Assembly (NCBI RefSeq): GCF_037975245.1
Contig: NC_092577.1
Location: 37,130,398 to 37,194,397 of the forward strand
Direction: 5' to 3'
From: Apostichopus japonicus
Lineage: Eukaryota > Echinodermata > Holothuroidea > Aspidochirotida > Stichopodidae
DNA: 64,000 nt
Part shown: positions 33,411-64,000 of the stretch, piece after piece
Numbering within the stretch: position 1 is the first letter of the stretch
How the letters are laid out: every line of letters begins with the position of its first letter
Translations under genes and position numbers: made by a program
Notes under the pieces: model-generated
The model's input: the letters and a program-made list of their open reading frames with translations, nothing else
Told to the model about the DNA's origin: nothing
Databases searched by the model: none

Positions 33411-33414
33411 GTAA
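33411..33414. other. Target-site duplication GTAA, left copy
   Basis: GTAA directly precedes the left LTR and recurs directly after the right LTR at 42688-42691. A 4-bp duplication fits Ty3/Gypsy integrases. Confidence 0.75.
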
Positions 33415-38400: not shown

Positions 38401-40287
38401 TAGTGCTTGAATATTTGGAAAAAACGAAGCCACATAATTAACTGCACCTACAAATCGTCTTACTGACTTAACATTGTGTGGTTTCGGTGTGTTCCTAATC
38501 GCTGCACATCTGTCATGCAAAGGTTGGATACAAGCCTCACCTTCTGGGGTTATTGAGAGCAAATGTCCCATATATCGGACTGAATTTTGGAAAATGCTAC
38601 ACTTTTTCGGAGAGATTTTCAATCCATTGTCCATTAAAACCTTAAAAATTGCCTGTAGGTGTTGTTTGTGAGATTGTTTGTCTGCACTGTACACAATAAT
38701 ATCGTCATGATGAGCAATACAGAACTTATTTGAATTTGGGATCGTTGCCAAAATATCATTAATTTGCGACTGAAAGATCGCTGGAGATAAATTCAATCCC
38801 TGTGGTAAGCGTTTATAATAATAATGCTTTCCTCCATGAAATGAAGCAATACCTGTATATTGTTGTGCATGAACACTAAGTGGCAGACAGAAGAATGCAG
38901 ACTTTAAATCAAGAACACCCAAAATTTTGGCTCCAGAGTACCCTATGGTACGGATAGTCTCATTCAGTAATGGAAATGGGTGATTGAGACGTTTTATTCT
39001 ACTGTTCAAGTAGCGAAAATCTGTGACAACTCTTTTGTCTTTTGTTCCCTTCTTTGGAATTAGGAAAACCGGTGAGGTATAAGACTGATGTCCTACCGCT
39101 AAGATTCCTAATCGCACTAATTTGTCAAGCTCACTGGCGACAATGACTTTGTCCTCATCTGAAAGTCTATAGGGACGTATGTAAAATGGCTCATCATTAG
39201 TAAGCGTAATATCAGCCTCATAATTTGGACAGTGAGATAATTCACCATAAAGAGAAAATGCATCTCTATGTGAGTCTAGAAATTCATATATGCTCTCTGT
39301 TTCTGAAGCATTTAGAATACTTTGTTCCAAATTAATGTTATCTCTCATGATTTCCTGTTCGGATTTGGAAACCAGGGGATCATCAGTTGTCAAATGTGGA
39401 TAACGATGTAAATTATATCGTGTAATTTCATCACGGTTCTCTTTAGAGTTAGAATTGGTTTGAAAAAGAGACGGTTTTTCGATGTCTCTCATGACATTGA
39501 GAAAATCTAGACATTCAGTAGGTATGTCTTCTGTGACCGTAATGATATCTGCTAAATTTAAATGAGCCACTGTGCGAGAAGGATGCAGAAAAAATTTCCG
39601 GTTACCCATGTTGCTTAGTAGAATCTTTGTTCTACCTTTATGCATTTTCACTAACATTCGTGAAGGACACATACGAGATATTAGAGGAAACGGTTTAATA
39701 ACCACATCTGCATTTCGTGCATATAGTGGAAGACGTCCCTGTACAGTAATGTATCTTTGCTGACCTGGGTAAATAACAAATCTCTGCACTGGCCTAAGGA
39801 AGACTTTGGCTTGTTTAATTCTAAAACAGTTTGTGGTAAAGTCCAAAGATCCATTCAATTCCTTCAGAGTTTGACTACCTAATATTAAGTCAATACCTGT
39901 CAGGTTTGCAGCAATTAAAGCAGAAAGTTGAAATTCATGACCCTGAATTTTGACCTGAAATGTTATCGTGCTATACGCATGAATAAACTGACCATTACCC
40001 AACTTTAGGTTTACTACATCAACTGAGACTGGTTGTATAGAGGATAAATACTTTGAATTTTGCACTGTAGAAGAAGAAATGATAGAGCGTGTTGCTCCAC
40101 TATCAAACAACAATGAAATTCCTTTACCATCATGTAAAGTACCTCTTACAAAATTACGTGTGTCCAGTTGAATATCCACATTACGGTCGTTCCCTGTATA
40201 TCTAGAACTAGGAATATTACTATTCTTCCAAATATTATTTGCTTTACGTTTCGATCTTCCTTTACTTGGTACTTTGTCTGGAGTCAC
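35413..40287 (-). CDS. pol: Pol polyprotein: protease, RT, RNase H, integrase
   Basis: An open frame of 1624 codons. Protease: LLFDSGATRSI with catalytic Asp62. Reverse transcriptase: Asp460 in VLDLKSAF, LPQGLNLSPAIF at 494-505, and the active-site pair in HHDD (526-529), where most Gypsy elements have Y-x-DD or F-x-DD. RNase H: Asp680, Glu719 or Glu721, Asp746 and Asp791. Integrase: zinc ligands His1088, His1095, Cys1125 and Cys1128; catalytic Asp1158, Asp1217 and Glu1252 (34 residues between the last two); then a GPF/Y-like module near 1400. A linker of about 200 basic and Pro/Ser/Thr-rich residues separates RNase H from integrase. The frame is -1 relative to gag and has no ATG near its start (position 40287 is GTG), so it is probably made by frameshifting. 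Confidence 0.96.
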   Translation of the reverse strand: MTPDKVPSKGRSKRKANNIWKNSNIPSSRYTGNDRNVDIQLDTRNFVRGTLHDGKGISLLFDSGATRSIISSSTVQNSKYLSSIQPVSVDVVNLKLGNGQFIHAYSTITFQVKIQGHEFQLSALIAANLTGIDLILGSQTLKELNGSLDFTTNCFRIKQAKVFLRPVQRFVIYPGQQRYITVQGRLPLYARNADVVIKPFPLISRMCPSRMLVKMHKGRTKILLSNMGNRKFFLHPSRTVAHLNLADIITVTEDIPTECLDFLNVMRDIEKPSLFQTNSNSKENRDEITRYNLHRYPHLTTDDPLVSKSEQEIMRDNINLEQSILNASETESIYEFLDSHRDAFSLYGELSHCPNYEADITLTNDEPFYIRPYRLSDEDKVIVASELDKLVRLGILAVGHQSYTSPVFLIPKKGTKDKRVVTDFRYLNSRIKRLNHPFPLLNETIRTIGYSGAKILGVLDLKSAFFCLPLSVHAQQYTGIASFHGGKHYYYKRLPQGLNLSPAIFQSQINDILATIPNSNKFCIAHHDDIIVYSADKQSHKQHLQAIFKVLMDNGLKISPKKCSIFQNSVRYMGHLLSITPEGEACIQPLHDRCAAIRNTPKPHNVKSVRRFVGAVNYVASFFPNIQALLRPLHHLSRKRKVFKWTEEHQCAFLSIKELLCNPPILHMPQKYGRFVLYSDTSRVATGSYLTQRVNGKENIIAYYSKILPPACQRYSVTELEMMGLFINVTAFKHLLQNVEFEAYVDHSAIVELFKSKQEPATSRLRKLLFKLSEYTFQVGYKKGSELVLADYLSRAPQEFHSEIDQVAQEVSSYEDFSTLPKETFNPIMTRSMARSMGVEVPDLFPNKVTKESKQDSPARESTNRVERTSVPKAKHSKEHVTQRPQSESQKTTTPVISTDKRDTYSQRPTITMPSENRRTFSPDILVVPNFTSVSQPTEPRLVDQNRHRVPEVVREPPPELFVQPKPVITNIDHLVTGHIPKQKELNKVMKAIRGKLIKNYDLPFDVKELQIQQQTCPYYKPIYDFLAHDIIPGNVKHARTVRSQAEDYLLCNSLLFRIFLHETNDAKMTLQLVVPETMVEQIISRYHDDLLSNHQGVMRTYLTIRQHFYLRNMFQRISNYIQACLRCQEFRKKPDKLRQYHARIPDSYRPFDRLSLDFKTMPTTATGFKHLMVVCDEITRFVVCVSLKTLDAETICEALLQRVVTTFGPPSCIISDAAASLTGKLVELLSKALGIEQKFISVSNHGSLQVERHIQTLSNFLKVNLNQFGTDWVRFVPTSAYAYNTFSSPQLGSYSPFELAFGRKPPNLTNLSFNPMAGLSQSHGEYAALLKKRFDHLSRVMLVLQKKQQDAQNVKISAKLDKGAIYSTGQLVYLYKPTSSSLTANSRKIAAEWCGPLVIHQVLDRTHYLLATLKGEILSDVFNYNRLKPCFVRASSETKNITNIQKLRQVLKTKGSSSEKVARMRNVLSSNTSNAENVNVMQDAHIEFHDEFGNILPGVTSDHIMCLMSTKPMNVASFLENRAHNEGLALPYPSIRDSILRQKKVFANAPQGDMKVQRARYKLGELQVLVTYQTPCFPTGFKSHDFWWNVGKYSNTGEIMNFLHEKGLNITGSPGRMLQTLYG

Positions 40288-40304
40288 TGTATGATGAGTG
40301 CAAT

Positions 40305-40330
40305 CATAAGTGCTCCCTAATGAAAATTCT
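40305..40330 (-). promoter_or_regulatory. Gag-pol overlap, probable -1 frameshift region
   Basis: In element orientation gag ends AGAATTTTCATTAG. The pol frame is one base back and open across this point and upstream of it (reading through ACCTCAGAA). The T4 run just before the gag stop could allow a one-base slip. It is not a canonical X-XXY-YYZ heptamer, so the exact site is uncertain. Confidence 0.55.
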
Positions 40331-41261
40331 GAGGTGGTACTTTGTTTACATTAGCCTCCATTTCATGGCTTAGGCGAATTTGGCAATATTGTGCAAAATG
40401 ACCTCGATTTTGGCAGTAATGACATGTGATTGAAGGATTAAAATATGGTAACCTTCTCCTGTTATTATTCTGACCTGTCCTAGGACCACGAGAATCACGA
40501 GAACTATATCTTTGCCTCATATCTTTAGGATTGTCTTGCGATTCCGACCTACGTGACTGATCAAACTTGGTTTCTAATTCCTGAATTTTGGTACACAACT
40601 CGTGTATCTCAGAAGATGCAGAAATAGTAGGAGTCTGAACAGAAGACGCTTTGTCGTGCATTGCCATAAATGGTTCGGAAGAAGCTGGTGGTTGACTTTG
40701 TATTTGTAAGTCAAAATAGCACTGTACTTTCATGACCAAATCTGCAATTGTTGCTTGTGGTGATGCAGACATTAACACTGCTGAGCGGCATTGCAAAGGC
40801 AGGGTCGAGATGAATTTATCTCTAATTTGGTCCTCGCCATAGCTTAATTGTGCTGCAGCTTTTGAAATTTTGGCCAAATGAGCTTGAGCTGTATCACCTG
40901 GCGTATAGCTTAATGCTTGAAATGCCTGTGATTTAGCGTAGGAAGAAGTGCCTGGACTGAAACGAGCAAGGAATTGCTTTCGAAGATCAGCAACAGTTGA
41001 AAAATTTTTGTTTTCAATCCAGAGTCTGGCTTGGCCTTTAAGTGTTCGCTTAAATATGCGACATATTTCATTAAATTCTTCCGCTACAGGGGTGGTTTGG
41101 GACGGCAATTTATGCACCTCTAAATAATCTTCAAATCCCAAATAATGAGCTTCGGCTAAATCTGCATCAATTACATCGCCCTGAAATCGTGATGGCAAAA
41201 AATCAGTGGGTCTATGTTTCTGCATAACAGAGGTCGAAGTTTCCTGTTTACTGACGGACAT
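40317..41261 (-). CDS. gag: Gag polyprotein with CCHC zinc knuckle
   Basis: 314 residues forming the structural polyprotein of the retrotransposon particle. The middle region (about residues 60-190, including KGQARLWIEN and LRKQFLARFSPG) resembles the retrotransposon gag capsid family. One nucleocapsid zinc knuckle, CHYCQNRGHFAQYC, sits at about residues 280-293 with C-x2-C-x4-H-x4-C spacing, preceded by a basic arginine-rich stretch. The protein ends in a TAG that overlaps the pol frame. The start ATG at 41261 is the first in the frame after the leader. Confidence 0.93.
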   Translation of the reverse strand: MSVSKQETSTSVMQKHRPTDFLPSRFQGDVIDADLAEAHYLGFEDYLEVHKLPSQTTPVAEEFNEICRIFKRTLKGQARLWIENKNFSTVADLRKQFLARFSPGTSSYAKSQAFQALSYTPGDTAQAHLAKISKAAAQLSYGEDQIRDKFISTLPLQCRSAVLMSASPQATIADLVMKVQCYFDLQIQSQPPASSEPFMAMHDKASSVQTPTISASSEIHELCTKIQELETKFDQSRRSESQDNPKDMRQRYSSRDSRGPRTGQNNNRRRLPYFNPSITCHYCQNRGHFAQYCQIRLSHEMEANVNKVPPQNFH

Positions 41262-41925
41262 TATGCCGAATACAATTAGGCTAGTTATGAGTATACAACA
41301 TGAGCCTTTACTTAATTGAACACACTATCGACCGCAATTAAATACAAATAACAAATATTCAATACATGGACACGATTAAAATAACTTAACGGTACACTCT
41401 GATCTCAAATAGGGGTTGGGATACAAATTGGCATGATTTCACTCACCCTTAAGTTTAACTAAGAACTGGTAGTGGAACTGCAAACGATGATTGAAGTCCC
41501 TCGGTTAGTAGTAGTAGTAGTGGCAGGTAGTAGCAGGTAGTAGCAGTAGCAGGCGGGCCTACATTTCGTGTGCTGCAGATTCGTTCGCCGTTAACATCGG
41601 GTAGAGTCTAGGCTTAGATCGCGAAAATGTTCAGTTCTGATGTTTAGAGCTGTAGTATGACTAACTACGTACTAGTTGCGCGAATGTTCAAACGCGAACT
41701 GCATGCTGGGTTGATTAACGTTAGTGTACAGATCAGTGGTTCCGGTGTACAGACTTAGGCTAGTATAGGCCGTCTTCCCTCGTAGAGTGTTTCAGTTAGG
41801 CTAGGTCGTGAACATACGTTGTGTTCCTCGTTAGGTCTTCGGGCCCAAAAAAATCTCCTGTTCGTTATTGAACGTAACGAACGAAAGCTGTGAAAAGTTC
41901 CGTTTCCGTTTTCTTCCTGAAGAAA
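41262..41925 (-). other. 5' leader of the retrotransposon
   Basis: About 660 bp between the primer-binding site and gag. It includes a GTAGTAG/GCAGTAGCAG trinucleotide-like tract at about 41506-41557. Packaging and dimerisation signals would be expected here but cannot be read by eye. Confidence 0.55.
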
Positions 41926-41943
41926 GCCCCCGCTCCTCCACCA
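41926..41943 (-). promoter_or_regulatory. Primer-binding site
   Basis: In element orientation the 5' LTR ends ...ATTACA and is followed directly by TGGTGGAGGAGCGGGG. TGG pairs with the CCA end of a tRNA, as expected for a PBS. The tRNA type was not identified. Confidence 0.6.
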
Positions 41944-42687
41944 TGTAATATTGTGTCGAGCCCGGCTCTTCCGATAGTGATACTTTATCGGGACTCGCGA
42001 TAGAAAGGTACTGGGATATCTTGATGCCGTATTTATGCTTCTTCAGGATATGTCTCGAACGGGCGAAAACAATGAGTTCACAGAAAAACAATTTGACGAG
42101 ATAGGATTTGATTATTGATTCGGTATAATTTCTTCTCTGTCGATTCTCTTAACAAATAAAACTAAATTACAATGATTTGACTTGACTTGACTCCGTCAAT
42201 TAAACAATTAGGAGTGATGAAATAGTAACGAAGCAATGACGAACTGATCACGGAGCGCTGACGGAGTGATAAATTTTCTGATCAAGTGGAGAATCTTTCG
42301 GCCTCCTTTTACTTTTATACCCTACTTCTACAAAAATCCCTCTGCGCACAATCAGTAGGCAGCCAATAAACTGACCATCCTGTATTAACTTAATGATATA
42401 AAAATAAGTGCACTGGCACTGATCTGCCCTGATTGGTTGGGAGTTTGGAAGTCCATCCCCTTTCTATGGAAACTTCCATACCACGTGAGAGAACCTTCTC
42501 GAATGTTCCACAGACATAATGGAATCTATTTTGGGAAAAGGCCCTGTACCAAGATTCAATAAGATAGTTAAAAAATTCTCGTGGGAAAACTGAATCCATG
42601 ACCTAGATAAATACATAAGAGGCCTGTAAGGTGTCTCGATGGAGCTTTTCGGTAACATCAAAGAGATGGTATCACTATTTCATAACA
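41944..42687 (-). repeat. 5' LTR (744 bp)
   Basis: Same termini and length as 33415-34158, with no difference seen. It should carry the element's promoter and poly(A) signal. Confidence 0.96.
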
Positions 42688-42691: not shown

Positions 42692-44188
42692 CTCACAAAG
42701 AGACACCATGCACAACACGCGAAGAATAAGCACAGTAGGACACATCCACCGAGAACAGAAGCTGTAAATAGAGATAAAAGGAGACAAACAAAATAAATAT
42801 AAAAATGAATAAATAAATAAATAAATGAAGGGCTATTGACACTCCATAATGTTAGGAACAAACACCGTGTGATATGTTGCATTAGTATGACTTCCCATCT
42901 TGTTTTAGTAGTACTTCCAAAACCATTATAAATAACTGATATATTTGTTTTATTTATCTCGATTTCTCTTCATTTATGTCTTGAAGACTATATTAGGCTT
43001 CTTTTTTGAAGAAAATCAAACAGTTGTGGAGATGACACGACACCCCATGACACGTACTGTCATTCACTTCTTGAATGACCGAAAAATTGACACGGCATAA
43101 TGATAAATCACAGTCAAATTAACATATTAAGAGTTTGAAACAATATAATTAGATGGGGGTTTTCATATGGCAGGGTGGAGTAGTTTTAAATTTTGCCTCT
43201 CGTGCAACTGGAACATCTCTTATAAATCTTGAATTATTTATGTGAGGATTGTAGAATGGTCTGTCACTTCACTGCTGTAACAATTTCCAGGTGTAGATCC
43301 AGGGGTGTACACAACAACCGCTCCACCTCCCCCCGACCCCCCCCCCCCAAGTACATAAATAGTGCTTAGCACAACCTTGTGTGTACACCCTCCACATCTC
43401 CTGAATGACCAATGGACCACACCCCTTCCATTCTGTAATCCTGGATCCGTAAATTCAGTTCAAAGAGCTAGTCAGATTAGTCTATCTTACCTCCAATAAT
43501 TACAGCTTTTCTACCACATTCTGTGCTTTGTCGACACCCTTGGAAGCTTGGGCCTACGTGAATTAAGAAAAGCACTAAATAATTGACAAAATTACAAGAC
43601 GTTTTAACAATGGTTAGACAATCAAGTGATCGAAAAAGCTGTTAAAAATATGAAATAAGTTTATTTTTTGAAATGACCTTCTGAACATTTATCTAGATAA
43701 GAAAAGGCGGATGGGAATTTTGTTGAGATACAGATCCTTGAAAGTGTCAAAATAAAAAACTAAACAATGTTCACATTTGATGTACTTTTCATTACACTCT
43801 CTCAAACATTTTATATGAATGTTGCTATTTTAACATTATAACTAATTACAAATTGTGAAATGGACCATTATTTATAGGTTACATACCTATGGTTCCTCCT
43901 TAGATTGCTGGGGTCCCTCCTTAAATTGATTGGGTCCCTCCAACTCAGAATGCCTAGCTAGGGGCCTGGAGTGAGCATGTTTTATTTCCATAGCTATGCT
44001 TTAAATTGTTTAATGAGACTATTTTCAATATTATTTCAGTTAGAAGCTCAATGAGTCTTTTTTTATGAGGGGGGGGGGGGGGCTTTCTGTCAGTATGGTT
44101 ACTAACTGTTTTGACCATGAAAATGACCAGGCTAAGCTTAAATAGAACACGTTTCGATGCAAAGCATATTTGTGAAAAAAATACTTAC
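42692..44188 (-). other. Probable intron of the transmembrane gene
   Basis: Lies downstream (minus strand) of a strong donor at 44188. No next exon was recognised. It includes an AAAT microsatellite (42785-42826) and a C-run element end near 43317-43350 (CCACCTCCCCCCGACC). Confidence 0.45.
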
Positions 44189-45372
44189 TGAAGATGAAGG
44201 TCAAAATGACTCCAGTCACTGTCATCAGAAACAAAACACAGATGATTAATAGGAAAACCATAATGATTCTTTTACAAGATGTTAATTCATTCTGATGTTT
44301 GGCAGATTGAATAATTGGCTGGACTGACGAGTCCATTCGTCTTATCGTCTGTCGTGGTCTATCGTACCGTGGATTATTGTGCCTATATTGGTTTCGACTC
44401 CGGGGTCTCTCAGGTGGTTCTGGTGGACCGGTGGAGGACAAACCATCCATGTCAGGTACAGAGGCTGATTCGGATATGGTCGCGTAAAATGCCGAGTCGG
44501 GAATCGAGACCAAACGTCTCCCAGCGACATTTGAATGACTCCCGGCGACGATGCCGTCAGGGATATTACTTTCTCCCGGAATCCATTCTCGTCCATATCC
44601 CGGTGCTGCGGTGTTGGTACGAGCCGCTGTTCCCGGGTTGTGAATTGGTCCCCGCTGCTCTCCGTTACGATGAGAACTCCTAGCTGTAACATTACGTCTA
44701 GGTCGATCGTAATGACTGTCTACAGCTGTTTTACTCAGATCAATCGTTTCAACATTCTCACGCATTTCCCGTTCACGCATGCGCACTGCTTGTTGTCTAG
44801 CTTGTTCCTTTACCCGCCGTATCGTCTCTAGAGGCACGTATCCATCATGGTCTTGACTTTCCGATTGGCTTCTGTCACCGTGCACGGTCTGTAACCGATC
44901 AAATTGATCCCCATCTCCATCTTCTGAGATCTCCTGAATCCTGGCCAATTCCTCCTCTATTGATGTACTATCTTCTTCCTCTACTCCCTGCTGGAACGAA
45001 TCATTCACATCCGAGAAATCCACGATTGGTTCTAATTTAGAAGCTGTTCTCTCTCTTAATGAATGTGACCTTCTTTTATCAGGATGAAAACCAGCTCTGG
45101 ACCTCATATCGTGAAGTACGTACACCTTCCTTGGATCACCGAGAGGACCTGGAAAGGTCGGCTCTCTATAATGTCTTTCCAGACTCGCAGTAAACATTAG
45201 GTGAGGCATGGCAGTGTGATGTACCCTGGGGTCAAGGTGAACACTGGGTCCAGGTATATGCAAAGGATGGGCTCTTTGGAAATATATTGGCATTGGTCTG
45301 ATGGGAAGAAGGCGTCCTCCTGGATGAAAGGAATACGGCATCGCCCTGCCTCTCTCCATGGTTGCAAATTGT
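44189..45372 (-). CDS. First coding exon of an unidentified single-pass membrane protein
   Basis: On the minus strand the exon follows a strong acceptor (TTTTTTTTTGCAG, ending 45373) and starts at ATG 45359 in good context (AACCATGG). It encodes 390 codons and ends inside codon 391 at a strong donor (TTCA|GTAAGTA). Visible parts: a Pro- and His-rich N-terminus, an acidic segment (GVEEEDSTSIEEELARIQEI), a charged Gln/Arg/Glu helix around RRVKEQARQQAVRMREREM, a basic Arg/Asn/Pro-rich stretch with PPEPPERPRSR, and one hydrophobic segment at about 365-390 preceded by CKR. There is no signal peptide, so a type II protein with a long cytoplasmic head is likely, its outer part encoded by exons not found here. 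Unspliced reading adds 48 residues ending at 44040. I do not recognise the family. Confidence 0.75.
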
Positions 45373-45876
45373 CTGCAAAAAAAAATGAAGTTGTTCCATT
45401 TATTACAAATCTCCCGGAGCGAGATTTTTCATTACACAGATATAGTTGATACAAAACGTGGAGGAGTCGGGGACGGGCCTTGTTTCCTCTCTAATGACGC
45501 TTCGGGTAAGGACGACGTAGCCCAGGTGCACAATAAGCGGCTCTTCCTCCTCAGTTTTGTAAAAGCATCAAATATGCTCCTTTTCATTAACAGGAAATTC
45601 CCCTTCTGGTGTAAAAGTACCATAATTCTCCCATCAGGTCTTGTTTTTGTGTGCTCTCTTGTTATTTTGTCATTTTTTGGTGAATTAGATTAAAATTATG
45701 ATAACATTTACATTAGAAATGGTTCCCTGGTACTATACGAATAATATAAATACGAAGTACCCTTTCTCTGATAAACAGTTGTTGCCACTGATTGTACAGA
45801 GAAACTATTTGGTCTGAACGTATCGAGAAACCTTAAGTTTGCGATTTCCCGGCATCAAATCAAAGTCACATTCCCC
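45373..45876. other. Upstream intron or flank of the transmembrane gene
   Basis: Since the coding exon has an acceptor in front, a 5' untranslated exon should lie further right. None was recognised. Open frames here overlap without motifs. Confidence 0.4.
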
Positions 45877-49672: not shown

Positions 49673-49696
49673 ATGTTTTATGCCACCTTTTTCAAT

Positions 49697-49820
49697 ATGG
49701 CTGCCCGCATTGGTGATTTCGACTTTCGGAAATTTAGACATATTTTGATGACGATAACAATATCTATATCTGTTGTAGTTGAATGCGTAACTGCTGATGA
49801 TGCAGATGTGGAATGGGGTG
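49697..49820 (+). CDS. CULT gene exon 1, signal peptide
   Basis: ATG at 49697 (MAARIGDFDFRKF), with an in-frame ATG 24 nt upstream at 49673 as alternative. It encodes the signal peptide and a short acidic stretch (DDADVEWG). Donor GGTG|GTAAGT at 49821, phase 1. Confidence 0.78.
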
Positions 49821-52800
49821 GTAAGTACTCCTTAATCCAATTTCTACACTGTCAAAATGATAAAGTTACTCTACACTAGTGGTAGCTTTGTTAGCCTAAC
49901 GACAGTAACGTTTGCCTTCACTATAACTTAAGCAGCATATACTGTAGGCCTACGCGTAAGTACAACTCACAGAAATTAATATACATAGAAATATAAAACA
50001 GAGGCTTAGGCAACATGAATCTTTAACACCTTTTTATTAATAAAAAAACTTGGTTTTACGAAACAGTTTGTTGCTGCTCACATGCAACAACACTTAACAG
50101 TAACAGTACTTTGTAGTTGTACAGTAACATACTGCACATTTAAAGGGTGTGAAGACTCGCGCAAAAAGAAACGTCTCATGCCGGTAATCTGACCTAGTTT
50201 CGAATGAGGTGTAACCGAAGTGTTACACACCACCATCGATCCCAGAAAATACGCACGCAGGTTGCTATCTTCGGTAATTAGACACTAGTGTACAGTCAGT
50301 ACATACAGCTGCGGTCAATACCCACAGCACAGAGTACAAACGATACAGCGATGGACATCTCAGGTCCAGCTAATGATAACAAGGTATCAAGTTTCATTAC
50401 TGTACTGTCTGCATTTTGTAGCGACAAGCAGAAAACTCTAGTTGCAAGCAACGGTGAATGTGATGTGCTATTAAGTTGGGTTTTTTATTTGCTTTTTCCA
50501 GAGCATTTACTCTGTCGTAACTGCGGTCATGAAGTGGCAAAGGCATCAGACTTAATTAACGTTCCAAGTCCACATGCACTTCTCCAGAGGAATGAGACCA
50601 TCATGGGAAGAGATGTTCTTTTACAGATCTTTCAAAACCCAGGAGGTAGGTTGTTATTGAATGAGGTTCTATATCATTTCAGCAGAATGTGACACTCATT
50701 TAAACTGAATGACTACTTGATGGTATGTACAGTAGGTTAGTATGACGGAATTGCACATGTATCAAACTATCACTTTTTAACACATGACCAAATGGCAATA
50801 ATGAAATTTTGTGGTTTTCATTCAACCATTTACTTTGATCAACTCAAAGTGAACGAACCTTGTCTTTGTTACAGGATTGCAGTTTGACCTGATCACAACA
50901 TCTTCTGCTTTGGTGCAATCAATGAATCAGGTTTGATATGCATTTATTTACATGACTTTTGTTATGATAAGGTTTCATCATGGGGATAAAGTATTAAACA
51001 CAACTTGATAGTCTCATGTGATACACCCAAAAATAACCGTATCATTCCATAATGGTTATGAAGCCCACTATATGATGTGACAAAAGTGAAAAGTCTAGTA
51101 ATTATGTATCATACATAGATGACGTGGTTTTGATTTGTGCTTGTCAGGATTTTGTTCAGGAGGAGAATAACCTTCAGAATTTAGTTGAAAGTAATTGAAT
51201 TTATCTGATTGAATTCATAGCTCTAATTGGTCGTATGTGTGAATTACTTGGTAAAATGTACAGTAATATAACATATATGTAAGTGTTGCTAGTGTATTAT
51301 AGGGTTATATAGGGTTGTACAGCCCTAAGCATAGAGGTTGCATCTTAAACAGGTGTCATAGCCTAACCACTGAAACACATGTTTTTCAGACAAATGCACT
51401 TTTAGGTACACACGAAAACATTTTGAGTTCACAAGTGAGGTTACCAGGCATGCTCACGTGTGTGTCTATCTTGTTCTTCCTGTGATCACAAATTATCACA
51501 GGTGCGGATTGGCACAGGATTGTATGAAAGGGGTGTCATAGTATAACCAGTAACCACTGAACTGGTTCCACCCACCCCACCCCCCAACCACGGGTGTGGA
51601 AGGATGTACAGTGGGGTTGCATGGTGTCATAGAGGACCAGTTGAATGCTATCCAATATACACATTGTTATAAGTAATGACAAGCAAAAAGTATTTTCAGC
51701 AAAATAAAACCTCTGCTGTTGCCAGATACATTAAAGCAGCATTTTGCATTTGGTCGCCGTTTTCTACTTTTTTGACATGTCCATCGAGTTTTTACATATA
51801 TCAATCACAAACAGCAAACTAAGATATTAGCCCAGTTTTTCCCTGCCAACGTTAATTGGCGAGTAATTACGGATATTTGCAGATAATGAGAAAAGTGTCC
51901 CACGACAAATTCCACATTTAAAAATAATCGCATACAGTTCCCCCAACCCACTAGTTTGAATTCAACCAATCAGAGATGAAGTTTGAGTTATGATCCATTG
52001 CTAAAAATAGATTCAAGACTTTGCGTTGGTACAACCAGGGAGTTGTTATGGAACTCCCTGGTACAACTGCCATATAGACTGTACACAAATCAAGCATGGT
52101 GTTGTATTAAGTATTGGTCAATGACGTTCGTATTGTTTAAATACTCATATTATGGGCGATGTTTATTGGGATCCCAACGGAAAATATCTTGGAGAAAAAC
52201 AAAGTTGAAAGATGGAAATATTTCGACTTTTATGCCACCATTTGAAGTAAGATTTAAATAGATAAGCTAGTTATGTATGTCGTTATGGCATAGTGGAGTC
52301 AGTGAGGTTGAGAAAAATCATAGAAAAGGACGCAAGATGCTGCTTTAAGATACTTTTGCCAAACTGTAAGAAATCTTAATTGTGCCATAAAACATGCCTC
52401 TGTGCCATAAAACATGCCTCTGTGCCATAAAACATGTCTCTGTGACATTAACCTTCAAGTTTTGAAGAGTACTTTGGCCCCTACTCTTTGATGATCATTT
52501 TTAATTGATAAATTGTTATGAATCTTGGAATGTTTTACACAAACAAACATTTAGAATTTTGTTGAGTAACATTTTAATCTTCATACTGTCTTTCTTTCTT
52601 CCTTTCTTTGTAGAAATATCCAGCAGATACCTGGTTTGATAATTATACCTGGAGGCTTGTCAAATGTATCAGGTGTCAGGTTCATCTGGGTTGGTAAGGT
52701 TTTATCAGTGTTCATCATATGTTAGCACAGATCATGTAGTTTAAGGGTATAACTTAAAGTCAGTTGTTATTAGTTTTGAAACACTACTGTAGGTGTTATG

Positions 52801-55800
52801 GCGTATGGAACTCTACAGTAGGAGTCATGGCGTATGGAACTCTACAGTAGGAGTCATGGTGTATGTAACTCTACAGTAAGAGTCATGGCGTATGGAACTC
52901 TACAGTAGAAGTCATGGTATATGGAACTCTACAGTAGGAGTTATGGCGTATGGAAATCTACAGTAGGAGTCATGGTATATGGAACTCTACAGTAGGAGTC
53001 ATGGTGTATGGAACTCTACAGTAGGAGTCGTGGTATATGGAACTCTACAGTAGGAGTCATGGTGTATGGAACTCTACAGTAGGAGTCGTGGTATATGGAA
53101 CTCTACAGTAGGAGTCATGGCGTATGGAACTCTACAGTAGGAGTCATGGCGTATGGAACTCTACAGTAAGAGTCATGGCGTATGGAACTCTACAGTAGGA
53201 GTCATGGTATATGGAACTCTACAGTAGGAGTCATGGTGTATGGAACTCTACAGTAGGAGTCATGGTATATGGAACTCTACAGTAGGAGTCATGGTGTATG
53301 GAACTCTACAGTAGGAGTCATGGCGTATGGAACTCTACAGTAGGAGTCATGGTATATGGAACTCTACAGTAGGAGTCATGGTGTATGGAACTCTACAGTA
53401 GGAGTCGTGGCGTTTGGAACTCTACAGTAGGAGTCATATAGTCAAATGTGGAATCATCCTTTACCAGAGAAAACTAAAACTTGAAATGTCAAGTGGTGCA
53501 TTATGAGGCTTAGCTATTCTGTAAATTATATTTTATTTTGTATAATATTTTTAATCCGGTTTCATTTCTAACTTAAGCATACAGTGTACTATTTTGCAAA
53601 TTCCTCCGTGCCAAAAATAATATATTTTGTGTTATTAATGTTAAAGCTTGATTGCTTGAAATTTGGAGGAATTTATTAGTTTTCAAAATAAAAAAAGCAA
53701 TCGTTTTTTTGTTTTTTTCGTTTTACTTCTCCTGTTTCATTATTAAACATTTAGTTACAACACAGAAATATTAGTGTTACTTTACTTTGTTTTTCTTCTC
53801 CTGTTGTTTTATAGCAGATTGCATCTTATTAGGATGGTCCCATGTTTTATGATACTCTGTTTTTCTTTTCCTGCTGTTTTATAGCAGATTGCATCTTATT
53901 AGGATGGTCCCATGTTTTATGTTACTCTGTTTTTCTTCTCCTGTTGTTTTATAGCAGATTGCATCTTATTAGGATGGTCCCATGTTTATGTTACTCTGTT
54001 TTTCTTTTCCTGTTGTTTTATAGCAGATTGCATCTTATTAGGATGGTCCCATGTTTTATGTTACTCTGTTTTTCTTCTCCTGTTGTTTTATAGCAGATTG
54101 CATCTTATTAGGATGGTCCCATGTTTTATGTTACTCTGTTTTTCTTCTCCTGTTGTTTTATAGCAGATTGCATCTTATTAGGATGGTCCCATGTTTATGT
54201 TACTCTGTTTTTCTTTTCCTGCTGTTTTATAGCAGATTGCATCTTATAGGATGGTCCCATGTTTTATGTTACTCTGTTTTTCTTTTCCTGTTGTTTTATA
54301 GCAGATTGCATCTTATTAGGATGGTCCCATGTTTTATGCTACTCTGTTTTTCTTCTCCTATTGTTTTATAGCAGATTGCATCTTATTAGGATGGTCCCAT
54401 GTTTTATGTTACTCTGTTTTTCTTTTCCTGCTGTTTTATAGCAGATTGCATCTTATAGGATGGTCCCATGTTTTATGTTACTCTGTTTTTCTTTTCCTGT
54501 TGTTTTATAGCAGATTGCATCTTATTAGGATGGTCCCATGTTTTATGTTACTCTGTTTTTCTTCTCCTATTGTTTTATAGCAGATTGCATCTTATTAGGA
54601 TGGTCCCATGTTTTATGTTACTCTGTTTTTCTTCTCCTGTTGTTTTATAGCAGATTGCATCTTATTAGGATGGTCCCATGTTTTATGATACTCTGTTTTT
54701 CTTTTCCTGCTGTTTTATAGCAGATTGCATCTTATTAGGATGGTCCCATGTTTTATGTTACTCTGTTTTTCTTCTCCTGTTGTTTTATAGCAGATTGCAT
54801 CTTATTAGGATGGTCCCATGTTTTATGTTACTCTGTTTTTCTTTTCCTGTTGTTTTATAGCAGATTGCATCTTATTAGGATGGTCCCATGTTTTATGTTA
54901 CTCTGTTTTTCTTCTCCTGTTGTTTTATAGCAGATTGCATCTTATTAGGATGGTCCCATGTTTTATGTTACTCTGTTTTTCTTCTCCTGTTGTTTTATAG
55001 CAGATTGCATCTTATTAGGATGGTCCCATGTTTTATGTTACTCTGTTTTTCTTTTCCTGTTGTTTTATAGCAGATTGCATCTTATTAGGATGGTCCCATG
55101 TTTTATGTTACTCTGTTTTTCTTTTCCTCTTGTTTTATAGCAGATTGCATCTTATTAGGATGGTCCCATGTTTTATGTTACTCTGTTTCTCTTCTTCTGT
55201 TGTTTTATAGCAGATTGCATCTTATTAGGATGGTCCCATGTTTTATGTTACTCTGTTTTTCTTCTCCTGTTGTTTTATAGCAGATTGCATCTTATTAGGA
55301 TGGTCCCATGTTTTATGTTACTCTGTTTTTCTTCTCCTGTTGTTTTATAGCAGATTGCATCTTATTAGGATGGTCCCATGTTTTATGTTACTCTGTTTTT
55401 CTTCTCCTGTTGTTTTATAGCAGATTGCATCTTATTAGGATGGTCTAGTGTTTTATGTTACTCTGTTTTTCTTCTCCTGTTGTTTTATAGCAGATTGCAT
55501 CTTATTAGGATGGTCTAGTGTTTTATGTTACTCTGTTTCTCTTCTTCTGTTGTTTTATAGCAGATTGCATCTTATTAGGATGGTCCCATGTTTTATGTTA
55601 CTCTGTTTTTCTTCTCCTGTTGTTTTATAGCAGATTGCATCTTATTAGGATGGTCCCATGTTTTATGTTACTCTGTTTTTCTTCTCCTGTTGTTTTATAG
55701 CAGATTGCATCTTATTAGGATGGTCTAGTGTTTTATGTTACTCTGTTTTACTTCTACTGTTGTTTTATAGCAGATTGCATCTTATTAGGATGGTCCCATG

Positions 55801-58800
55801 TTTTATGTTACTCTGTTTTTCTTCTCCTGTTGTTTTATAGCAGATTGCATCTTATTAGGATGGTCCCATGTTTTATGTTACTCTGTTTTTCTTCTCCTGT
55901 TGTTTTATAGCAGATTGCATCTTATTAGGATGGTCCCATGTTTTATGTTACTCTGTTTCTCTTCTTCTGTTGTTTTATAGCAGATTGCATCTTATTAGGA
56001 TGGTCCCATGTTTTATGTTACTCTGTTTTTCTTTTCCTGTTGTTTTATAGCAGATTGCATCTTATTAGGATGGTCCCATGTTTTATGTTACTCTGTTTTT
56101 CTTTTCCTGTTGTTTTATAGCAGATTGCATCTTATTAGGATGGTCCCATGTTTTATGTTACTCTGTTTTACTTCTCCTGTTGTTTTATAGCAGATTGCAT
56201 CTTATTAGGATGGTCCCATGTTTTATGTTACTGTGTTTTTCTTCTCCTGTTGTTTTATAGCAGATTGCATCTTATTAGGATGGTCCCATGTTTTATGTTA
56301 CTCTGTTTCTCTTCTCCTGTTGTTTTATAGCAGATTGCATCTTATTAGGATGGTCCCATGTTTTATGTTACTCTGTTTTTCTTCTCCTGTTGTTTTATAG
56401 CAGATTGCATCTTATTAGGATGGTCCCATGTTTTATGTTACTCTGTTTTTCTTCTCCTGTTGTTTTATAGCAGATTGCATCTTATTAGGATGGTCCCATG
56501 TTTTATGTTACTCTGTTTTTCTTCTCCTGTTGTTTTATAGCAGATTGCATCTTATTAGGATGGTCCCATGTTTTATGTTACTCTGTTTTTCTTCTCCTGT
56601 TGTTTTATAGCAGATTGCATCTTATTAGGATGGTCCCATGTTTTATGTTACTCTGTTTTTCTTCTCCTGTTGTTTTATAGCAGATTGCATCTTATTAGGA
56701 TGGTCCCATGTTTTATGTTACTCTGTTTTACTTCTCCTGTTGTTTTATAGCAGATTGCATCTTATTAGGATGGTCCCATGTTTATGTTACTCTGTTTTTC
56801 TTCTCCTGTTGTTTTATAGCAGATTGCATCTTATTAGGATGGTCTATTGTTTTATGTTACTCTGTTTTTCTTCTCCTGTTGTTTTATAGCAGATTGCATC
56901 TTATTAGGATGGTCTATTGTTTTATGTTACTGTGTTTTACTTCTCCTGTTGTTTTATAGCAGATTGCATCTTATTAGGATGGTCCCATGTTTTATGTTAC
57001 TGTGTTTTTCTTCTCCTGTTGTTTTATAGCAGATTGCATCTTATTAGGATGGTCCCATGTTTTATGTTACTGTGTTTTTCTTCTCCTGTTGTTTTATAGC
57101 AGATTGCATCTTATTAGGATGGTCCCATGTTTTATGTTACTCTGTTTTTCTTCTCCTGTTGTTTTATAGCAGATTGCATCTTATTAGGATGGTCCCATGT
57201 TTATGTTACTCTGTTTTTCTTTTCCTGTTGTTTTATAGCAGATTGCATCTTATTAGGATGGTCCCATGTTTATGTTACTCTGTTTTTCTTCTCCTGTTGT
57301 TTTATAGCAGATTGCATCTTATTAGGATGGTCCCATGTTTTATGTTACTCTGTTTTTCTTCTCCTATTGTTTTATAGCAGATTGCATCTTATTAGGATGG
57401 TCCCATGTTTTATGTTACTCTGTTTTTCTTCTCCTGTTGTTTTATAGCAGATTGCATCTTATTAGGATGGTCTAGTGTTTTATGTTACTCTGTTTTTCTT
57501 CTCCTGTTGTTTTATAGCAGATTGCATCTTATTAGGATGGTCTAGTGTTTTATGTTACTCTGTTTCTCTTCTTCTGTTGTTTTATAGCAGATTGCATCTT
57601 ATTAGGATGGTCCCATGTTTTATGTTACTCTGTTTTTCTTCTCCTGTTGTTTTATAGCAGATTGCATCTTATTAGGATGGTCCCATGTTTTATGTTACTC
57701 TGTTTTTCTTCTCCTGTTGTTTTATAGCAGATTGCATCTTATTAGGATGGTCTAGTGTTTTATGTTACTCTGTTTTACTTCTACTGTTGTTTTATAGCAG
57801 ATTGCATCTTATTAGGATGGTCCCATGTTTTATGTTACTCTGTTTTTCTTCTCCTGTTGTTTTATAGCAGATTGCATCTTATTAGGATGGTCCCATGTTT
57901 TATGTTACTCTGTTTTTCTTCTCCTGTTGTTTTATAGCAGATTGCATCTTATTAGGATGGTCCCATGTTTTATGTTACTCTGTTTCTCTTCTTCTGTTGT
58001 TTTATAGCAGATTGCATCTTATTAGGATGGTCCCATGTTTTATGTTACTCTGTTTTTCTTCTCCTGTTGTTTTATAGCAGATTGCATCTTATTAGGATGG
58101 TCCCATGTTTTATGTTACTCTGTTTTTCTTCTCCTGTTGTTTTATAGCAGATTGCATCTTATTAGGATGGTCCCATGTTTTATGTTACTCTGTTTTTCTT
58201 CTCCTGTTGTTTTATAGCAGATTGCATCTTATTAGGATGGTCCCATGTTTTATGTTACTCTGTTTTACTTCTCCTGTTGTTTTATAGCAGATTGCATCTT
58301 ATTAGGATGGTCCCATGTTTTATGTTACTGTGTTTTTCTTCTCCTGTTGTTTTATAGCAGATTGCATCTTATTAGGATGGTCCCATGTTTTATGTTACTC
58401 TGTTTCTCTTCTCCTGTTGTTTTATAGCAGATTGCATCTTATTAGGATGGTCCCATGTTTTATGTTACTCTGTTTTTCTTCTCCTGTTGTTTTATAGCAG
58501 ATTGCATCTTATTAGGATGGTCCCATGTTTTATGTTACTCTGTTTTTCTTCTCCTGTTGTTTTATAGCAGATTGCATCTTATTAGGATGGTCCCATGTTT
58601 TATGTTACTCTGTTTTTCTTCTCCTGTTGTTTTATAGCAGATTGCATCTTATTAGGATGGTCCCATGTTTTATGTTACTCTGTTTTTCTTCTCCTGTTGT
58701 TTTATAGCAGATTGCATCTTATTAGGATGGTCCCATGTTTTATGTTACTCTGTTTTACTTCTCCTGTTGTTTTATAGCAGATTGCATCTTATTAGGATGG

Positions 58801-61800
58801 TCCCATGTTTATGTTACTCTGTTTTTCTTTTCCTGTTGTTTTATAGCAGATTGCATCTTATTAGGATGGTCCCATGTTTATGTTACTCTGTTTTTCTTCT
58901 CCTGTTGTTTTATAGCAGATTGCATCTTATTAGGATGGTCCCATGTTTATGTTACTCTGTTTTTCTTCTCCTGTTGTTTTATAGCAGATTGCATCTTATT
59001 AGGATGGTCCCATGTTTTATGTTACTCTGTTTTTCTTTTCCTGTTGTTTTATAGCAGATTGCATCTTATTAGGATGGTCCCATGTTTTATGTTACTCTGT
59101 TTTTCTTTTCCTGTTGTTTTATAGCAGATTGCATCTTATTAGGATGGTCCCATGTTTATGTTACTCTGTTTTTCTTTTCCTGTTGTTTTATAGCAGATTG
59201 CATCTTATTAGGATGGTCCCATGTTTATGTTACTCTGTTTTTCTTCTCCTGTTGTTTTATAGCAGATTGCATCTTATTAGGATGGTCCCATGTTTATGTT
59301 ACTCTGTTTTTCTTCTCCTGTTGTTTTATAGCAGATTGCATCTTATTAGGATGGTCCCATGTTTATGTTACTCTGTTTTTCTTTTCCTGTTGTTTTATAG
59401 CAGATTGCATCTTATTAGGATGGTCCCATGTTTATGTTACTCTGTTTTTCTTCTCCTGTTGTTTTATAGCAGATTGCATCTTATTAGGATGGTCCCATGT
59501 TTTATGTTACTCTGTTTTTCTTCTCCTATTGTTTTATAGCAGATTGCATCTTATTAGGATGGTCCCATGTTTTATGTTACTCTGTTTTTCTTCTCCTGTT
59601 GTTTTATAGCAGATTGCATCTTATTAGGATGGTCTAGTGTTTTATGTTACTCTGTTTTACTTCTCCTGTTGTTTTATAGCAGATTGCATCTTATTAGGAT
59701 GGTCTAGTGTTTTATGTTACTCTGTTTTACTTCTCCTGTTGTTTTATAGCAGATTGCATCTTATTAGGATGGTCCCATGTTTATGTTACTCTGTTTTTCT
59801 TTTCCTGTTGTTTTATAGCAGATTGCATCTTATTAGGATGGTCCCATGTTTATGTTACACTGTTTTTCTTCTCCTGCTGTTTCATAGCAGATTGCATCTT
59901 ATTAGGATGGTCCCATGTTTATGTTACACTGTTTTTCTTCTCCTGTTGTTTTATAGCAGATTGCATCTTATTAGGATGGTCCCATGTTTATGTTACTCTG
60001 TTTTTCTTTTCCTGTTGTTTTATAGCAGATTGCATCTTATTAGGATGGTCCCATGTTTATGTTACACTGTTTTTCTTCTCCTGTTGTTTTATAGCAGATT
60101 GCATCTTATTAGGATGGTCCCATGTTTATGTTACTCTGTTTTTCTTCTCCTGTTGTTTTATAGCAGATTGCACCTTATTAGGATGGTCCCATGTTTATGT
60201 TACTCTGTTTTTCTTCTCCTGTTGTTTTATAGCAGATTGCACCTTATTAGGATGGTCCCATGTTTTATGTTACTCTGTTTTTCTTCTCCTGTTGTTTTAT
60301 AGCAGATTGCATCTTATTAGGATGGTCTATTGTTTTATGTTACTCTGTTTTTCTTCTCCTGTTGTTTTATAGCAGATTGCATCTTATTAGGATGGTCTAT
60401 TGTTTTATGTTACTGTGTTTTACTTCTCCTGTTGTTTTATAGCAGATTGCATCTTATTAGGATGGTCCCATGTTTTATGTTACTGTGTTTTTCTTCTCCT
60501 GTTGTTTTATAGCAGATTGCATCTTATTAGGATGGTCCCATGTTTTATGTTACTGTGTTTTTCTTCTCCTGTTGTTTTATAGCAGATTGCATCTTATTAG
60601 GATGGTCCCGTGTTTTATGTTACTCTGTTTTACTTCTACTGTTGTTTTATAGCAGATTGCATCTTATTAGGATGGTCCCGTGTTTTATGTTACTCTGTTT
60701 TTCTTCTCCTGTTGTTTTATAGCAGATTGCATCTTATTAGGATGGTCCCGTGTTTTATGTTACTCTGTTTTTCTTCTCCTGTTGTTTTATAGCAGATTGC
60801 ATCTTATTAGGATGGTCCCATGTTTTATGTTACTCTGTTTTACTTCTCCTGTTGTTTTATAGCAGATTGCATCTTATTAGGATGGTCCCATGTTTTATGT
60901 TACTCTGTTTTTCTTCTCCTGTTGTTTTATAGCAGATTGCATCTTATTAGGATGGTCCCATGTTTTATGTTACTCTGTTTTTCTTCTTCTGTTGTTTTAT
61001 AGCAGATTGCATCTTATTAGGATGGTCCCATGTTTTATGTTACTCTGTTTCTCTTCTTCTGTTGTTTTATAGCAGATTGCATCTTATTAGGATGGTCCCA
61101 TGTTTTATGTTACTCTGTTTTTCTTCTCCTGTTGTTTTATAGCAGATTGCATCTTATTAGGATGGTCCCATGTTTTATGTTACTCTGTTTTTCTTCTTCT
61201 GTTGTTTTATAGCAGATTGCATCTTATTAGGATGGTCCCATGTTTTATGTTACTCTGTTTCTCTTCTTCTGTTGTTTTATAGCAGATTGCATCTTATTAG
61301 GATGGTCCCATGTTTATGTTACTCTGTTTTTCTTCTCCTGTTGTTTTATAGCAGATTGCATCTTATTAGGATGGTCCCATGTTTTATGTTACTCTGTTTT
61401 TCTTCTCCTGTTGTTTTATAGCAGATTGCATCTTATTAGGATGGTCCCATGTTTTATGTTACTCTGTTTTTCTTCTCCTGTTGTTTTATAGCAGATTGCA
61501 TCTTATTAGGATGGTCCCATGTTTTATGTTACTCTGTTTTTCTTCTCCTGTTGTTTTATAGCAGATTGCATCTTATTAGGATGGTCCCATGTTTTATGTT
61601 ACTCTGTTTTACTTCTACTGTTGTTTTATAGCAGATTGCATCTTATTAGGATAGTCCCATGTTTTATGTTACTCTGTTTTTCTTCTTCTGTTGTTTTATA
61701 GCAGATTGCATCTTATTAGGATGGTCCCATGTTTTATGTTACTCTGTTTTTCTTCTCCTGTTGTTTTATTAGGTGCTATGAACCAGGAGACAAGTTGCAA

Positions 61801-62037
61801 GCTAAATGCCACAACTGTGATAAAGTTAATGAAGCAATTACAGAAAAGATGAGGTTCTTTGGGCTTATATTAAACAGAGTTATTCATCAACAATGTAAGT
61901 ATTCATGCATGATGGATAACAAAGCTTGCTTTTTAAATAGTTTGCCTCGAAATAACAGCCTTCCTAGATCTTTAGTAAAGTACTCAGAAGTAGGATATCT
62001 GAGTGCCTATCGTGATGTATTCCTTGATAGACATTAG
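49697..62037 (+). CDS. Secreted CULT-domain (cereblon-type) protein, 5 exons
   Basis: Five exons join in consistent phases into about 222 residues (230 from ATG 49673). The N-terminus has a signal peptide: hydrophobic ILMTITISISVVV, then ECVTA|DD as the likely cleavage site. The rest is a CULT domain, the ligand- and thalidomide-binding fold of cereblon: zinc pair CRNC in exon 2, pair CIRC in exon 4, and the tryptophan cage in WFDNYTW and HLGW with spacings of 6 and 14, as in human cereblon (Trp380, 386, 400). It closes with FFGLILNRV. There is no Lon-like domain, so it is not cereblon itself but fits the secreted CULT group described in eukaryotes. The biological ligand is unknown. The 3' end is uncertain: GTAAGT at 61895 could be a donor. 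Intron 4 (9.1 kb) is mostly one satellite. Confidence 0.85.
50502..50645 (+). CDS. CULT gene exon 2, first zinc pair
   Basis: Acceptor TTGCTTTTTCCAG at 50489-50501, donor GGAG|GTAGGT. Phase 1 in completes GAG, giving EHLLCRNCGHEVAKASDLIN and on to GRDVLLQIFQNPG. CRNC is the first zinc-binding pair of the CULT fold. Confidence 0.88.
50875..50930 (+). CDS. CULT gene exon 3
   Basis: Acceptor TTTGTTACAG, donor AATCAG|GTTTGA, 56 nt, phase 1 in and 0 out. It encodes LQFDLITTSSALVQSMNQ, a beta-strand region. Confidence 0.82.
51731..52348. mobile_element. Non-autonomous DNA transposon with TTAA ends, CULT intron 3
   Basis: TTAA plus AGCAGCATTTTGC at the left and GCAAGATGCTGCT plus TTAA at the right: 13-bp inverted ends with one mismatch inside a TTAA duplication. 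TTAA targets are used by piggyBac and Kolobok transposases. The 610-bp interior has no transposase. It contains a hairpin at 52034-52062 (ACCAGGGAGTT and its complement). Confidence 0.75.
52381..52440. repeat. 20-bp tandem repeat, 3 copies
   Basis: TGTGCCATAAAACATGCCTC three times in a row, the last with one substitution. Confidence 0.95.
52614..52693 (+). CDS. CULT gene exon 4, tryptophan cage and second zinc pair
   Basis: Acceptor TTTCTTTGTAG, donor GGTTG|GTAAGG, phase 0 in and 2 out. It encodes DTWFDNYTWRLVKCIRCQVH and LG(W). The third cage tryptophan codon is split by the intron (TG|G), so its identity depends on which acceptor is used. Confidence 0.9.
52783..53437. repeat. 29-bp minisatellite, about 22 copies, CULT intron 4
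   Basis: AACTCTACAGTAGGAGTCAT plus GGTGTATGG or variants (GGCGTATGG, GGTATATGG), with a period of 28-29 bp. Variant types alternate, hinting at two-unit duplications. Confidence 0.95.
53776..61772 (+). repeat. 70-bp satellite made of splice-acceptor-like units, about 114 copies, CULT intron 4
   Basis: Each unit runs CAGATTGCATCTTATTAGGA, TGGTCCCATG, TTTTATGTTACTCTGTTTTT, CTTCTCCTGTTGTTTTATAG. The last part is a textbook pyrimidine tract plus AG. The final unit merges into the true acceptor of exon 5 (GTTGTTTTATTAG). Many units have lost one T (69 bp). Variants (TCTAGTG, TCTATTG, CTACTG) occur in the same order in two blocks about 2.03 kb apart (55.4-56.8 and 57.5-58.8 kb), showing duplication of about 29 units. 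From a decoy AG the frame stops at the end of the same unit. Confidence 0.97.
61773..62037 (+). CDS. CULT gene exon 5, C-terminus
   Basis: Acceptor GTTGTTTTATTAG at 61760-61772. It opens with G, completing TGG, then CYEPGDKLQAKCHNCDKVNE and MRFFGLILNRVIHQQ, the end of the domain. CHNC is an additional cysteine pair. The frame runs on to TAA... TAG at 62035-62037, but a strong donor GTAAGT at 61895 could instead lead to an unseen exon. Confidence 0.75.
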
Positions 62038-62360: not shown

Positions 62361-64000
62361 ATGTCTGTCCCCCCCTTTCTCCGATTTCATATATGGTTAC
62401 TCTTGACAAGAAGCTGCAGCCTTTCGTCTGTAACGATGGCTGCAGCCTCGTTTGTTTCAGACCCCAGTTTGGATGTGGTACTTAAGTTGGTTGGATTAAC
62501 TAGACTTCAAATATACAGACCGTTAAGTGAGTTCCTCAGAAGCAGGGACAGTTCGGCAGTCAGTAAAATACTGTGTTTTACTGGTCACAAGTATTTATAT
62601 GATTTTAAAGCTTGCATACAGCACATGTTGCTCTGTACCCAGTAAGCTTGTACAAATGTATCAGCAATACTATTTGAAAAGGACCTATTAGAAGCACTTA
62701 CAAGTTTCTGACACATGATTAAGATGGATATGAACAACATAAGCAGCTTTTGTTACATTAGAGAACGCTGTTTCATGGCTAGGACCCCGATAATGTCATT
62801 TTAAAATTCTTCGCCGTAATGCTATACTTGAATGATTCACAGATGAACAACAGGCAGTCAATATCAGTTAGCTAAAATGGGACTCAAAAGTGTCTTACCT
62901 CTGGGTATGCTGGAATCTTTATTAAAGTACCATTGAGTATATTTTGAATAATTCATAAATTCATTTTACAGGAAAAAAATGTTCAAACGTAGACTGAGAG
63001 TGAGTATTGATCTTATTGAAATTTCAGATGCAGATTCACTAGTGATGTCACCAAAATTTTACGGAGGGTGAAGGAATCTGATTAGTAATCTTGATTGATA
63101 TGATTCAAAGACACTTGAGGACTCAATCGGCAGGAACCAGTCATTAAATCCAGAAGCTGGAGCATAGAAAATACATTTATTTACCTAGGCGTGTAGATAA
63201 TGGTGAAGGGTCATTATTCTTTGCATATTAACTGTACCTGAAATATGACAACTGAACTGGTGCAGTATTGACATAAGGTGATTAAACGAAACAAAGTGTC
63301 ACAGCCAAATAACACTCTCAAGCTTGGTGTGTGTTTTCTCCATAGTTAAAGAAAGTGCCTTGATATTTTTCTGTCATAGTAAGGATTGAAAAGTAAAGAG
63401 ATATTTGTATTTATGACTTTGTATATTTATATTAAAAGTGCTAACAAATTAAAAAGAAGTTCTCTTGGTTTTTATGAGATTCCTAAAGAAACAAAAGATT
63501 ATCGCAAATCATTCAAAAACGTCTGAAATGAAGAGCTTAATTCTTATAACTCAACATGACTTTTTGTTTGATATATATCATAGAGATAATTATAATTATG
63601 TAGAAGGGATTTCTGTTTGGAAGGAGCTTGTGTATCTGTTTACTCTACATTTTATCGTAAACGACTGGCTGTTAGCTTTAGGGTGCCTTTCTTTCCCAGC
63701 CATGGTTAAAGTAGGGATAAATTGGAATTTCTAAAATATTGTATTTGAAGAGCCATTCTGAAATATGAGACCGTGGCAGTGCATACTAAACATCACATCA
63801 TTCGTATTAGCAATATTTGTGTAAGTTTTCGTTTACAGCATTACAGGGTGTAGGGTAATTTGAGAACCAAATCAAACCTAATTAACAATCAAATTTTAAG
63901 ATTTAAGCTAAAATGAATCCCGAATAAACATACCCTAGTTTTTAGTTTTCACATACAAGTCAAATGGCAGGAGTCTGTGTTGTCATTCCTTAATTAATAA
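62361..64000. other. No gene recognised
   Basis: Two + frames (62361-62645 and 63465-63734) show no motif or convincing splice context. No repeat array or element end is evident in this AT-rich stretch. Confidence 0.4.

Follow-up and report, generated by a model that had tools for sequence, protein, structure and literature searches.

An intronic minisatellite of acceptor-like units continuous with the exon 5 splice site of a CULT-domain gene in the sea cucumber Apostichopus japonicus

We analyzed a stretch of 64,000 nucleotides of Apostichopus japonicus DNA (NCBI RefSeq assembly GCF_037975245.1, contig NC_092577.1, positions 37,130,398 to 37,194,397 of the forward strand; hereafter the window, in which positions are counted from the first letter) that contains a gene for a CULT-domain protein. 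The intron between exons 4 and 5 of this gene carries an array of 114 complete tandem units, each resembling a 3' splice site, and the array passes directly into a shortened 115th copy that serves as the acceptor of exon 5. We favor, with reasonable rather than strong confidence, the view that this is an intronic minisatellite that grew from a block including the exon 5 acceptor, that its last copy is the working one, and that the rest of the array is mostly tolerated and near neutral.

Tandem Repeats Finder (TRF) places the repeat in one array at 53782–61769 with a period of 70, 114.4 copies, 97% matches and a score of 14947, a score that rules out chance or mere low complexity as its source. 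Cutting the array into units on an internal anchor yields 114 complete units at 53782–61738 (plus strand), of which 91 are 70 nt and 23 are 69 nt long. These comprise 30 distinct sequences; 35 of the 114 units are identical to the consensus, and 17 of the 70 alignment columns are variable. By structure the array is a minisatellite, with head-to-tail units inside the 10–100 bp range that defines the class. The 115th copy is 34 nt long (61739–61772, plus strand), and its first 31 nt are those of the unit consensus, an exact stretch that is also present in 55 of the 114 complete units. It ends in TTTTATTAG/GTGC (here and below a slash marks the splice junction), the real acceptor of exon 5. Pyrimidines make up 85% of a 27-nt tract in the unit consensus and in the real acceptor alike.

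Every unit contains a pyrimidine tract and three AGs, found in TATAG (CATAG in one unit), CAG and TTAG (TATAG in two units), and nine more AGs have been created by base changes, for a total of 351 in the 114 units. The CAG sits in TATAGCAG/, where two AGs lie 3 nt apart. Within 60 to 10 nt upstream, the sole branch-like motif of the form yTnAy in the consensus is TTTAT, which starts 39 nt before the end of TATAG. A degenerate piece of the unit, 78% alike, is found at 53712–53743, 69 nt before the first copy, and is perhaps an old copy. The same intron holds a second tandem array (52780–53437, plus strand; 22.7 copies of a 29-nt unit by TRF) with no real splice site inside it.

The position of the array relative to the coding sequence follows from a six-exon model that reproduces all 197 residues of the A. 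japonicus protein P0001 letter for letter. The exons, all on the plus strand and each an exact match to P0001, are exon 1 (coding part, 49673–49820), exon 2 (50502–50645), exon 3 (50875–50930), exon 4 (52614–52693, with the donor G/GTAAGG after 52693), exon 5 (61773–61894, an internal exon of 122 nt with the donor AAT/GTAAGT) and exon 6 (coding part to the stop, 63028–63071). The model was obtained by trying GT/AG choices near tblastn matches, with the exon 5 acceptor sought only near 61765–61784; the AGs of the array cannot yield P0001, because each leads to an early stop. Judged from this match of genomic DNA to protein, the annotated protein uses copy 115 as its exon 5 acceptor.

Exon 4 ends in the TG of a split tryptophan codon, which corresponds to the third tryptophan of the CULT domain in an alignment to chains named 'Cereblon isoform 4', which we take to be bacterial. 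Database matches of the protein built from the window were P0001, an uncharacterized A. japonicus protein, and P0002 of Holothuria leucospilota, the latter with 68% identity over 76% of a query whose start was wrong, an error that lowered the coverage and left the matches unaffected. The residues across the junction, HLGW/CYEPG, are preserved in P0002. A phmmer search of the PDB returned chains named cereblon (best E = 4e-6), and a Pfam scan gave no family at E 0.001 or better. The query of these searches had 184 residues, and its part before exon 2 was the frame just upstream of exon 2, not exon 1.

Splicing to a decoy AG would alter the codon at the junction in a manner that depends on the AG used. 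TATAG would give TG/C and replace tryptophan with cysteine, CAG would give TG/A, a stop at the junction itself, and TTAG would give TG/G and keep the tryptophan. All 351 decoy AGs lead to a stop before exon 6. For the CAG class it stands at the junction; for the others its end most commonly falls 70 nt (85 AGs) or 52 nt (84 AGs) past the junction. Skipping of exon 5 also produces a TGA at the junction. In 349 of the 351 cases the stop lies more than 55 nt before the junction of exons 5 and 6; the two exceptions, both in unit 114, have a stop 42 nt before it. A stop more than 55 nt ahead of the last junction is the usual rule for mRNA decay, and these 349 decoys are predicted from their position to trigger it.

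Much of this had been proposed in an initial annotation of the window, which described about 114 tandem acceptor copies at 53776–61772. The acceptor-like character of the 70-bp unit, the unbroken passage of the array into the exon 5 acceptor, the gene structure and the truncation of the protein by decoy use are all borne out, and the count needs only the shortened 115th copy to be complete, with the start moved from a position 6 nt too early. The change of TGG to TGC at TATAG and the tryptophan kept at TTAG are likewise correct. The stop had been put about 66 nt after a TATAG junction, and the third AG of the unit, with its immediate TGA, had been missed.

Could the real site be chosen simply for its strength? 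An acceptor weight matrix was built from the 15 real acceptors outside arrays in the CULT gene and in a neighboring ACOX1-like gene described below. The real CULT acceptor scores 7.5, and the decoys have medians of 4.9 for TATAG, 6.6 for CAG and 2.5 for TTAG (114 of each). On the same scale the 15 real acceptors, each left out in turn, range from −3.7 to 11.05 with a median of 6.2, and 2,406 other AGs outside arrays have a median of −2.0 and a 95% point of 4.9, with 33 of them reaching the score of the real CULT site. None of the TATAG or TTAG decoys scores as high as that site, and 12 of the 114 CAG decoys equal or exceed it, which rules out the explanation that the real acceptor is the strongest. 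With the best decoys matching the real site, the choice is not explained by sequence strength.

We suggest that the explanation lies in how the array arose and in where its units stand. The repeated block would have held the 3' splice site of exon 5, and slippage or unequal exchange would have multiplied it until 114 complete copies preceded the working copy. The acceptor AG is described as being found by a downstream search from the branch point, which usually takes the first AG, and AGs close to one another compete through the preceding base (PMC1431707). Choice in the CULT intron would likewise fall on the first AG that follows a branch point. Each unit has an AG-free stretch of its own, so that most copies need not compete, and the decoys would leave the last copy unblocked. 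Pairing across exon 5 with the strong donor GTAAGT would further favor copies near that donor, and the nearest one or two decoys alone would give an exon of ordinary size; among the 114 units, two would keep exon 5 within 300 nt, with lengths of 193 and 263 nt. The earlier picture of a spliceosome that must reject more than 100 competitors is on these grounds probably overstated. The nearest decoys would take a few per cent of the splicing, or rather more than that, their product would be wasted since all of them give early stops, and the cost of the array would be a modest loss of mRNA.

Several observations weigh against this account. By eye, the CULT unit has no clear sequence shared with exon 5, unlike the units of the ACOX1-like gene, and therefore the seed of the array may have been a stretch immediately upstream of the exon. 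Exon pairing and the 300-nt limit come from work on vertebrates and are applied to a sea cucumber by analogy. In the two nearest units the CAG decoys have higher scores (8.4 and 8.9) than the real site (7.5); the matrix ignores the AG that lies three bases before the CAG and so places no penalty on the CAG. Furthermore, 122 of the 2,406 other AGs come up to the median score of the TATAG decoys, and with a matrix of 15 sites, used and unused sites are poorly separated. Finally, the use of copy 115 is read from a database entry, P0001, and from the DNA sequence.

A human gene provides the closest parallel and corrects the initial statement that no case at such a scale had been described. In ABCA7, a variable number tandem repeat (VNTR) of intron 18 begins with the donor GT of exon 18 and has a 25-bp unit in about 12 to 427 copies, for a length of up to 10,678 bp. 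Whatever the length of the array, about 2% of transcripts use a decoy donor one unit away, which causes a frameshift, and VNTR length raised skipping of the next exon, exon 19 (PMC5954066). Like this VNTR, the CULT array is continuous with its exon, and the copy adjoining that exon is the real splice site. The ABCA7 repeat multiplies a donor, lies downstream of its exon, has a 25-bp unit and varies between people, whereas the CULT array multiplies an acceptor, lies upstream of its exon and has a 70-bp unit in an echinoderm. A donor motif, GTAA or GTRAG, is absent from the doubled CULT consensus; a 46-nt array of the ACOX1-like gene does repeat a donor, as ABCA7 does. The CULT array is in these respects an acceptor-side mirror of the ABCA7 VNTR, and by analogy a few per cent of CULT splicing, perhaps more, would be expected at the nearest decoys. 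An acceptor-side array of the CULT kind was not found in the literature searched, whose coverage excludes most subscription journals.

The ABCA7 data also bear on whether copy number tunes output, in the sense that a longer array would bring more decoy use or more exon 5 skipping and thereby less functional CULT protein, as a rheostat would. We regard this as rather unlikely. In its favor, splicing to any AG in the 114 copies would cut the protein short, exon skipping does no better with its TGA at the junction, the CAG decoys closest to the real site equal it in score, and longer ABCA7 arrays strongly raised exon 19 skipping (PMC5954066). However, in ABCA7 decoy use itself is independent of array length, and exons of normal size would come from the nearest CULT units only.

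That the length of the array is an assembly error, by collapse or by expansion, is highly improbable. Long, near-identical arrays are a classic trouble spot for assembly, and 35 of the 114 rows here are a single sequence. Yet the 30 distinct units follow one another in irregular order, and the longest block found identical at two places spans 9 units, or ~630 nt; the array therefore looks like one that has grown and not like an assembler's copy. Moreover, a published A. japonicus assembly, possibly the source of the window, was built from HiFi reads with a mean of 14.7 kb, longer than the array (PMC10344927).

Least credible of all is that the array helps splicing, its 115 tract copies gathering U2AF and the U2 small nuclear ribonucleoprotein and so strengthening a distal exon after a 9-kb intron: the pyrimidine tract is as rich in the consensus as at the real site (85%) and the columns of the three AGs are invariant among the 114 copies, but young repeats are alike in any case (P = 0.18 for none of six AG columns varying when 17 of 70 columns do, which lends no support to selection keeping the AGs), the tract does vary, with the exact 31 nt kept in 55 of 114 units, and exon 5 already has an acceptor and a donor of its own.

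Two other mechanisms were considered and ruled out. A recursive splicing ratchet does not fit the consensus, in which the AGs are followed by CA, AT and GA, with no AG/GT. Intron gain by tandem duplication of an AGGT-bearing sequence, as reported in one study, resembles the CULT array in that tandem duplication multiplies splice signals (PMC4974935). With no GTAA or GTRAG donor motif in the doubled CULT consensus, new introns of this kind are not expected.

Smaller tandem sets of splice sites offer further comparisons. NAGNAG sites are tandem acceptors whose AGs lie 3 nt apart, and the pair in the CULT unit resembles them; unlike in NAGNAG, the pair itself occurs in tandem copies, and the annotated protein makes use of neither AG. 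A 37-bp repeat in intron 7 of coagulation factor VII is reported to contain a few tandem donor copies and would share with the CULT array the tandem copies of a splice site, but in small number and as donors rather than acceptors. The VNTR of TERT intron 6, with short (24–27) and long (40.5–66.5) alleles, is reported to be tied to TERT splicing (PMC11830802).

Three further splice-site arrays, which did not figure in the initial finding, are found in the neighboring ACOX1-like gene (9553–29060; 14 exons with an open frame of 667 residues). This gene is a paralogue of P0004; before the start of exon 11 was corrected, the two agreed at 587 of 667 positions. On the plus strand at exon 5, seven copies of the donor CAG/GTGAGTACT in a 46-nt unit occupy 16508–16817 and have a common 12-nt core; the real donor is the first, after 16518. 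On the same strand, the acceptor of exon 7 is the last (18809/18810) of 15 copies of TGTAG/GT in a 77-nt unit (17674–18825), and that of exon 8 is the last (20232/20233) of 7.0 copies of a 139-nt unit (19312–20282), in which six of the seven units match the motif used. The units of both acceptor arrays include the first bases of their exon, and in each of the three arrays the copy adjoining the exon is the real site of our model. Early stops would follow from all six donor decoys, all 14 exon 7 acceptor decoys and all five exon 8 acceptor decoys counted, the sixth, which lacks the motif, being left out. The donor array at exon 5 of the ACOX1-like gene is a cleaner natural test of donor choice than the CULT array.

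A near-identical database protein for the ACOX1-like gene was not present among the best 120 of 2,746 matches, nor in a second search that returned one row, in a database clustered at 90% and limited to certain lengths. The query of the first search lacked some exon pieces and included ~67 initial residues (from 387–611) that lie outside the later model. The arrays may have broken the annotation of this gene, or the clustering and length limits may hide its protein.

We also considered whether contact between arrays and splice sites exceeds chance. Tandem arrays make up 36% of the window (eighteen arrays, not counting three short ones), a share that seems large for a region with genes, and the 14 arrays in the CULT and ACOX1-like genes account for 55% of their 30,309 nt of intron. 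Three of these 14 span a real splice site and one, that of the CULT gene, abuts one. A null that places seeds anywhere in the genes predicts 1.1 contacts (P = 0.02 for four or more); one that places them in introns after each array is reduced to a single unit predicts 2.8 (P = 0.29). For these calculations, and for the weight matrix, the exon 8 array was joined with a short-period row that overlaps it and treated as 19258–20282. The collapsed-intron null is the fairer of the two, and thus many arrays in small introns suffice to explain the splice-site arrays; with the two nulls in disagreement, we make no claim that arrays are attracted to splice sites. Both the three further instances of the arrangement in the adjacent gene and a placement in keeping with chance favor the minisatellite view of the CULT array.

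Elsewhere in the window, 62 copies of an 84-bp unit, 97% alike, lie upstream of the ACOX1-like gene at 2106–7319. The minus strand at 35413–41324 carries long pol-like and gag-like open reading frames of a retroelement that appears Ty3/Gypsy-like by eye, and peptides shared between 33377–34150 and 41834–42679 may mark its end repeats. An open frame of 462 residues is found at 44040–45428 (minus strand); by eye, it has a probable membrane segment close to its end.

To our knowledge, most work on the choice among equal 3' splice sites has used constructs with few copies. The window provides a natural set for this question: one intron with 115 acceptors, two introns of the neighboring gene with 15 and 7, and another with 7 donors. 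Junction counts from RNA sequencing would give site choice as a function of distance, together with the effect on gene output in a farmed species. It is conceivable, if quite unlikely, that splice-site minisatellites are common and fast-changing in the A. japonicus genome, at acceptors and donors both, and that their copy number sets the amount of functional mRNA from many genes. If this were true, natural alleles would amount to a titration of splice-site competition over copy numbers from a few to more than 100.

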